Positions 9,515 to 50,590 of a DNA stretch of 64,000 bases are shown piece after piece (within the stretch, counting starts at the first letter, position 1; every line of letters starts with the position of its first letter). The notes under the pieces are model-generated. The model did no database searches. It was not told the origin of the DNA and was given only the letters and a program-made list of their open reading frames with translations. The stretch comes from Candidatus Chlorohelix allophototropha (GTDB taxonomy: Bacteria > Chloroflexota > Chloroflexia > Chloroheliales > Chloroheliaceae), in contig NZ_CP128399.1 of the NCBI RefSeq assembly GCF_030389965.1, forward strand, positions 2,826,799 to 2,890,798. The letters run 5' to 3'. The translations under genes were made by a program, and so were the position numbers.

Positions 9515-9866
9515 TTAGGCTAAAATTACTACTTGCAAGTAGGTACAGATGGCTGTGCTTGCTGAAAGCAATAAGGCTGAGACGGAGAGAGTAAGCCCGC
9601 CGTAACCTTCAGGGAGAAAAGGTCGCAGACTGAAAGCCTTTTCGGAGTAGGCGCGCCGAAGTTCACTCCTGAGCTTGCGGGTGAAAAGCAGCAAGGCTGT
9701 GTGAGTAGTCCGGCACGGAAGCATCCCGTTATCGAGCGTTTGAGCGGTTTTTCCTTAGAATGGGAAAAACAACCAGGGTGGTACCGCGTGGCATTTTCTG
9801 ATAGCGCATTTGGAAGCTGTCGGTTTACCGCGTCCCTGTTGGGGCGGTGGCTGGACGGTTTTTTTA
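9515..9866 (+). promoter_or_regulatory. T-box riboswitch controlling pheST
   Basis: A long structured leader ends in the T-box sequence AACCAGGGTGGTACCGCG (9771-9788), the element that pairs with the uncharged tRNA CCA end. It is followed by a terminator in which ACCGCGTCC pairs with GGACGG before seven T's (9860-9866). The specifier codon should be Phe; TTC at 9662-9664 in GAAGTTCACTCC is a candidate. Uncharged tRNA-Phe would favour the antiterminator and raise pheST expression. Confidence 0.92.
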
Positions 9867-19896: not shown

Positions 19897-19970
<74 letters not shown>

Positions 19971-20060
19971 CTTTTTATGTCTGCTATTCCTCATTGCTTG
20001 TAACCTCTCTCCAATCAGTTCGTTTTATATAGTGTGAAATAATAATCTTTATGAGGATTC

Positions 20061-49873: not shown

Positions 49874-49902
49874 TTGACTCGCATACAAAACCGCTATATA
49901 CT
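49874..49902 (+). promoter_or_regulatory. Sigma-70 promoter of an orphan transcript
   Basis: TTGACT (49874-49879), 17-bp spacer, TATACT (49897-49902). Upstream is AT-rich with A/T tracts, as in UP elements. Predicted start near 49909. Confidence 0.8.
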
Positions 49903-50052
49903 GTGGATGTAGAGAGAATATCTACACCCCACAGAATTGAGAAGCTACAATTCTTGGGAAGATAAATAAGGATGTTCACCTCAAAAGTGCGCATCTTTCT
50001 CTGTTATTGGTGGTAGCTTCACTTGCAAGTCCCAAATAGGAGGTGTACTGGT

Positions 50053-50100
50053 ATGGTTAAACCTCATGTGCTATTTGGAGTTTGGCAGGAAGACAGATAA
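50053..50100 (+). CDS. Possible 15-residue micro-ORF
   Basis: ATG 50053 to TAA 50098-50100: MVKPHVLFGVWQEDR. It has a near-perfect AGGAGGTG (50038-50045) 7 bp upstream, which is why it is listed; the size is too small for a firm call. It may be a leader peptide or a micro-protein within the orphan transcript. Confidence 0.3.
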   Translation: MVKPHVLFGVWQEDR

Positions 50101-50216
50101 AGCCCCAGTACTACTGCATCTGATCTTTTAGTAAATTTGTGTAAACTTGTAGTGTAAACGCGCTGGATAAGCCCTGATGCTATAGGTTTTAAGTGGTGAG
50201 TGTAGTTGAACTGTAA

Positions 50217-50402
50217 TTAAACTAAGGTGTATGTAGACACACAGAACCAAAGTAAAATTACAGGGTTAACAAAATCGGTAATAAAAAGATCAGCGGTACT
50301 CACGAGATAAATTAGACAGTATGCTGGGGCGATAAGCAATAGTTGGTTCCTGTAGCTCGGTGTAAGTAAGAGGAATGCAAAGGCGTATAGAAAGCCACGC
50401 AT
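50217..50402 (-). CDS. Possible small membrane protein, opposite to the orphan transcript
   Basis: A 61-residue hydrophobic frame (MRGFLYAFAFLLLTPSYRNQ... ending LLWFCVSTYTLV) with GGAAG just before ATG 50402. Two or three TM segments can be drawn. It lies antisense to the candidate RNA, has no family that I recognise, and may be chance. Confidence 0.2.
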   Translation of the reverse strand: MRGFLYAFAFLLLTPSYRNQLLLIAPAYCLIYLVSTADLFITDFVNPVILLWFCVSTYTLV

Positions 50403-50545
50403 CCACTTCCAAGATGGTTCCGTTAGAACCTTCACCGCTGCTTGAGCCGAGGAGTCGTGTAACGCAAAAGCGACTCAGGTTAATCTAGCGCAAATAAGCT
50501 GGTTAGCCCGCGTGTCTTCAGCCCATAAACTAAATAGAGAACTTT

Positions 50546-50585
50546 AAGAAGCTTTGGAACTCTTGCCAGAGCTTCTTTCCTTTTA
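50546..50585 (+). terminator. Terminator of the orphan transcript
   Basis: AAGAAGCTTTGG (50546-50557) pairs with CCAGAGCTTCTT (50566-50577), 12 bp with one G-U, then TCCTTTTATATT on the plus strand. The minus strand lacks a T-run after the stem, so it ends the plus transcript, not the DUF362 gene. Confidence 0.85.
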
Positions 50586-50590
50586 TATTC

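Follow-up and report, generated by a model that had tools for sequence, protein, structure and literature searches.

What does a transcription unit with strong ends and no evident gene encode? The question is raised by positions 49874-50585 of a 64,000-nucleotide stretch of chromosome 1 of Candidatus Chlorohelix allophototropha (G000:C1:2826799-2890798, hereafter the window). Here the original prediction had seen a TTGACT-17-TATACT promoter, two initial hairpins, a 12-bp terminator oriented for the plus strand only and no convincing protein gene, and had proposed an undescribed long non-coding RNA. Comparative folding in relatives and an Rfam search had been named as checks, and conservation of nothing but a short coding frame as the finding that would speak against it. 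The unit was resolved into the following features.

49874-49902, plus strand: sigma-70-type promoter TTGACT-17-TATACT, predicted start near 49909
49909-50037, plus strand: 5' leader with two hairpins in the predicted fold, sequence variable among relatives
50038-50045, plus strand: Shine-Dalgarno sequence AGGAGGTG, unchanged in all six copies from Chloroheliales and predicted to be partly sequestered
50053-50100, plus strand: micro-ORF MVKPHVLFGVWQEDR (15 codons and a stop), of the GVWQVD peptide family
50102-50110, plus strand: 5' strand of helix P1, GCCCCAGUA, 1 nt after the stop codon, pair probability 0.96-1.0, covarying
50111-50321, plus strand: insert of 211 nt in the loop of P1, specific to Chloroheliales
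50322-50330, plus strand: 3' strand of P1, UGCUGGGGC
50345-50356, plus strand: 5' strands of P2 (GGUUC) and P3 (GUAGC), with a 2x2 internal loop between them
50437-50448, plus strand: 3' strands of P3 (GCUGC) and P2 (GAGCC), pair probability 0.82-0.99
50546-50588, plus strand: intrinsic terminator, a 12-bp stem (50546-50577) followed by TCCTTTTATAT

Both ends of the unit were found as predicted, the terminator being oriented to the plus strand alone. In a consensus scan alone neither end exceeds chance (4 promoter-like sites seen against 6.5 expected, and 4 terminator-like sites against 3.2), and they are credible because they are conserved in the Chloroheliales comparison. All six copies have the -35 region TATTGAC without a change, and all finish with a terminator stem, alike in pairing but different in sequence, and then a T-rich stretch. 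The fold of the transcript scored z = -7.1 against shuffles, and z = -5.2 with our own shuffles. The two hairpins at the 5' start do form in the predicted fold, without conservation of their sequence. As for protein genes, the sole plus-strand ORF of at least 30 aa wholly inside the unit (37 aa, 50375-50488) lacks any evident equivalent in the aligned relatives; to this extent the earlier reading held, but it had overlooked ORFs of less than 30 aa and with them the 15-codon frame at 50053-50100.

Relatives of the unit were present in all five Chloroheliales genomes examined. A DNA search with the unit returned two in genome G002, and a search with one of these (L003) showed the other three genomes of the order to have copies too, giving six copies including that of the window. 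L003 is syntenic with the window, the order being threonine aldolase, RNA and convergent DUF362 (gene names are our reading of the translations), and the second G002 copy (L002) lies elsewhere. The two G002 copies (L002 1310-2060 and L003 1000-1740) are divergent, with 71% identity over about 560 nt. Common to all six are TATTGAC, a core around AGGAGGTG and the terminator. The RNA measures about 490-500 nt in genus g2 and 680-690 nt in the order's two other genera, and its length in this order is due to the insert in the P1 loop, which spans 82-244 nt in the six copies. In genus g2 a second conserved intergenic stretch was observed between the RNA terminator and DUF362 (L005 about 1860-2090 and L007 about 1890-2090), consisting of TGGCATA-N-ATGC followed by AGACCAAACCCTCAGTTTTCTCCTTTCCTGGTTATAAAGCCGG and a hairpin; it is possibly another small RNA, and the window has no room for it.

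The best conserved part of the unit is the micro-ORF, which is preceded at 7 nt by the perfect Shine-Dalgarno sequence. The Chloroheliales micro-ORFs have 15-17 codons and read MVKPHVLFGVWQEDR (window), MMKPKPRVLFGVRQEDR, MIKPEPHVLFGVRQEDR, MSKLKPQDLFGVRQEDM, MSKLKPQDMFGVRQEDI and MLKIKPQDLFGVRQEDI, each followed by a stop. The codon changes are mostly synonymous, and the Shine-Dalgarno sequence and in-frame start are retained; across the members from the whole phylum the motif uses GGA/GGT/GGG, GTC/GTA/GTT/GTG, CAG/CAA, GTC/GTG/GTT/GTA and GAC/GAT, and all three stop codons are in use. K-x-P residues recur at the N-terminus of the peptide. Set beside the hydrophobic membrane peptides of type I toxin-antitoxin systems, which are paired with an overlapping antisense RNA, the peptide is on inspection short and charged and not a membrane helix. 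Because its most conserved element is a micro-ORF with mainly synonymous variation, a Shine-Dalgarno sequence and an in-frame start, the description of the unit as non-coding is unsupported; as judged from sequence the unit is not non-coding, and translation of the micro-ORF is proposed. The Shine-Dalgarno sequence is predicted to pair with ACCUC within the ORF (about 50061-50065) and with the sequence just 3' of it, with a probability of only about 0.5-1.0 in the full fold of the window copy. The region of Shine-Dalgarno sequence, ORF and P1 5' strand folded alone was no better than shuffles (z = 0.17), and the sequestration is not universal among family members.

The thermodynamic fold of the window copy placed P1, P2 and P3 at probabilities of about 0.8-1.0, and these long-range helices are conserved among the Chloroheliales relatives together with the promoter and terminator. 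In the six copies all pairs of the three helices are standard, with repeated compensatory changes and an internal loop of constant size. Among eight sequences of one class, 97.2% of the helix cells are paired, 6 of 18 pairs have changed on both sides, and the covariation score is 0.327, sliding the partner strand giving no more than 0.095; the structure (A4) had been derived from the very sequences on which it was counted. Comparative folding thus returned conserved helices; since P1, P2 and P3 lie outside the frame and covary, conservation is not limited to a short coding frame.

About 35 further relatives were recovered across Chloroflexota by a covariance model of the core followed by patterns, nearly always one per genome. 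The model of the Chloroheliales core (R1) matched only this order within the class, plus one chance match; in 400 genomes of the phylum it found loci with frames such as MRLHSIFGVFQVDS, MKLREIYGVWQVDS and VSVRVLFGVWQIDR, each ending in a stop and followed by a GCCC hairpin. Two patterns were built from these loci. The first, in which P1 was not required, gave 20 matches in 19 of the 400 genomes and none when reversed. The second, in which the Shine-Dalgarno sequence was not required, matched 31 of 301 genomes (control, 5 genomes), and nearly all of its matches nevertheless carry a Shine-Dalgarno sequence and an in-frame start upstream. Furthermore, a model trained on another class (R2) recovered nearly all the other members tested and gave the window copy at E = 0.005, these E-values being rough. 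In one class exactly one copy was found in 17 of 29 genomes; genome G425, like G002, has two (L066 and L084). Promoters scoring at least 9/12 lie upstream of 47% of the phylum members and 4% of background windows, in a scan that missed the Chloroheliales promoters because it was limited to 150 nt upstream of the start codon.

The members share one anatomy. A promoter and leader are followed by a Shine-Dalgarno sequence, an ORF of about 9-25 codons with G-V-W-Q-V-D, a stop, 1 nt, and P1 starting with GCCC; in a simple gap-free scan the P1 hairpin has about 5-13 pairs, and 3' of it comes a branched domain, which P2/P3 close, with a strong terminator after it in most members. P2/P3 are conserved in sequence within families and in addition covary. 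The window contains all of this from the Shine-Dalgarno sequence onwards: a micro-ORF whose peptide fits GV(W/R/F)Q(V/E/I)D, its stop, a gap of about 1 nt, P1 with its GCCC, P2/P3 and the terminator. We are all but sure that an undescribed Chloroflexota family exists, a structured RNA with a conserved micro-ORF. Of the long non-coding RNA that had been proposed, an autonomous and structured RNA conserved in the order and the phylum stands and "non-coding" does not; "long" applies in Chloroheliales but not elsewhere, where the RNA has about 250-330 nt. One variant, locus L100 (about 100-190), has the peptide motif duplicated within a single micro-ORF (GAWQVDQAFLGVWQVD, then a stop).

Several candidates were set aside. 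One R1 match (G105, L036) lies inside an apparent protein gene, and two pattern matches (G268, L091 and G020, L151) have no micro-ORF led by a Shine-Dalgarno sequence. A Chloroheliales-type (GVRQED-type) pattern, the sole search applied to phyla beyond Chloroflexota, was run over 84,980 species and found true members in Chloroheliales only; its 13 other matches (for example L044 and L047) were judged to be parts of longer frames or frames with no such micro-ORF and stop. Matches with three mismatches in other Chloroflexia families mostly look like chance, the control giving a similar number. The absence from other Chloroflexota families may reflect divergence. Viral contigs, searched for a phage origin with two patterns, gave no match.

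The micro-ORF and P1 are joined with little freedom. A single nucleotide separates the stop from GCCC in each of the six Chloroheliales copies and in 19 of the 20 first-pattern matches; in the last of these matches GCCC follows the stop directly. In one Chloroflexia family (f9) the stop itself is lost: genomes G022, G134, G141, G150 and G155 (L086 and L145-L148) read GVWQVDR followed by S, T or P, with TCA, ACA or CCA in place of the stop, and the frame runs on through P1 and usually ends near or beyond its far side. Within f9, G153 retains the stop and G137 has the more divergent RIWQVDRS. Because f9 loses the stop yet keeps GVWQVDR and P1 adjacent, the position of the ribosome against P1 is suggested to matter. 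That the distance from motif to P1 matters more than the stop codon would be a suggestive rather than a clean conclusion from f9, since the constant spacing in the stop-shifted members (L099-L101, L086, L113 and f9) is partly built in by patterns that fixed the distance from D to GCCC.

Comparison at the sequence level shows the GVWQVD amino acids and the helices each under separate selection and juxtaposed with one-nucleotide precision. The explanation that we prefer, at even chances, is a dual RNA, at once the mRNA of a micropeptide and a structured RNA, in which translation remodels P1. That both peptide and RNA have a function is slightly favoured; that they form a ribosome switch in particular is a tentative reading of the anatomy, even chances being the most it could claim. 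In this dual RNA ribosomes would translate the micro-ORF, and when a ribosome decodes the Q-V-D codons its entry channel would reach the base of P1, so that the nascent GVWQVD and P1 together may position or pause it and open P1. Translation would then switch the RNA between P1 closed and P1 open and set its state or fate, and the effect in trans would come from the 3' domain, from the peptide once released, or from both. A second control on initiation could be the partial pairing of the Shine-Dalgarno sequence to the ORF in Chloroheliales and some other members. A bolder version is somewhat improbable: a phylum-wide RNA gene of a new kind, neither leader nor tmRNA nor base-pairing sRNA, in which a ribosome translating a fixed six-residue motif would serve as the switch of an RNA that is free-standing, structured and active in trans.

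The closest known systems are the dual-function RNAs, defined and exemplified by RNAIII/delta-haemolysin, SgrS/SgrT, SR1/SR1P and VcdRP/VcdP (PMC8672173). The family resembles them in being an autonomous transcript from promoter to terminator with structured parts and a small ORF led by a Shine-Dalgarno sequence; in silico it has its own promoter and terminator, and a Shine-Dalgarno sequence, a start and synonymous variation were observed for the ORF. It differs in that their ORFs are generally longer (VcdP has 29 aa; PMC8672173) and those of the family mostly have 9-20 codons, and in that here a conserved motif is locked to a hairpin and spread phylum-wide. Among the papers searched, none contains "GVWQVD" and none deals with Chloroflexota together with sRNA and small proteins. 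Should the reading be true, Chloroflexota possess an RNA gene, widespread and usually present once per genome, that is absent from RNA catalogues and whose ORF of about 9-25 codons gene callers would miss. A micropeptide joined to an RNA fold with a precision of one nucleotide would be a compact model of translation-driven RNA switching in trans, and a little-explored phylum would gain a testable regulatory RNA, Ca. C. allophototropha being already in culture.

Among the alternatives, the unit could be only the mRNA of a conserved trans-acting micropeptide, a signal or a modulator of a protein complex, with P1, P2/P3 and the terminator protecting or tuning translation. The peptide is indeed the best conserved part, its K-x-P recurs, and the gene is autonomous and usually single-copy with varying neighbours. 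But P1 stands at a fixed single-nucleotide spacing, the sequence conservation and covariation of P2/P3 exceed the needs of a stabilising UTR, and in f9 P1 keeps its place although the frame continues beyond the motif, and we consider this reading unlikely. It is more improbable still that the RNA acts alone as a regulator or scaffold, its ORF merely serving to load a ribosome, either as a decoy or so that P1 is kept open, and its peptide having no role. Such an RNA would fit the strong fold, the covarying helices and a stop codon that can move or vanish, but not the synonymous changes seen codon by codon in GVWQVD over about 35 loci, which are otherwise hard to explain and argue that the amino acids matter.

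In the arrest leaders TnaC, ErmBL and MsrDL the ORF is tiny, conserved residues lie near its C-terminal codons and a hairpin stands just downstream. The GVWQVD family has the same tiny ORF, with conserved residues beside the stop and a hairpin directly after, and an attenuator of this type controlling a downstream gene was considered. Unlike these leaders the gene has its own strong terminator in most loci and no regulated gene downstream, and to our knowledge its motif matches no known arrest-leader motif. The nearest genes, named by eye from translations, differ in about 30 loci and include ferritin-like, Ffh-like, GroEL-like, lysyl-tRNA synthetase-like and OPRTase-like genes among others, many of them convergent, as is DUF362 in the window; only L065 and L084 share a downstream gene (OPRTase-like). 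Because the neighbours differ, the RNA gene appears to stand and act alone. A cis-regulatory leader is thus largely refuted by the neighbours and is very unlikely.

A divergent member of a known RNA class, which the size and structure of the window copy might suggest, is the least probable of all, since Rfam at gathering and permissive thresholds returned nothing meaningful for the window region at E<=10 and nothing of relevance for eight relatives. tmRNA (ssrA) is likewise a stand-alone structured RNA with an internal mini-ORF and usually one copy per genome, but here the micro-ORF is preceded by a start codon and a Shine-Dalgarno sequence; no tRNA-like fold or RF00023 match was found at the unit, and a separate canonical ssrA is present in all five Chloroheliales genomes. 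No RF00013 (6S) match was found at the unit, and 6S matches lie elsewhere in G001, G022 and G175 and, weakly, in G000. OLE, GOLLD and ROOL are regarded as non-coding. The window copy shares with them the 600-nt class and a highly structured fold; it differs in that its size comes mainly from the one P1 insert and that neither these nor other Rfam families gave a covariance-model match at the unit. Elsewhere the window holds a T-box leader on the plus strand (9570-9840; RF00230, 96.2 bits), a tRNA-Val (19897-19971) and a tRNA-Arg on the minus strand (864-940).
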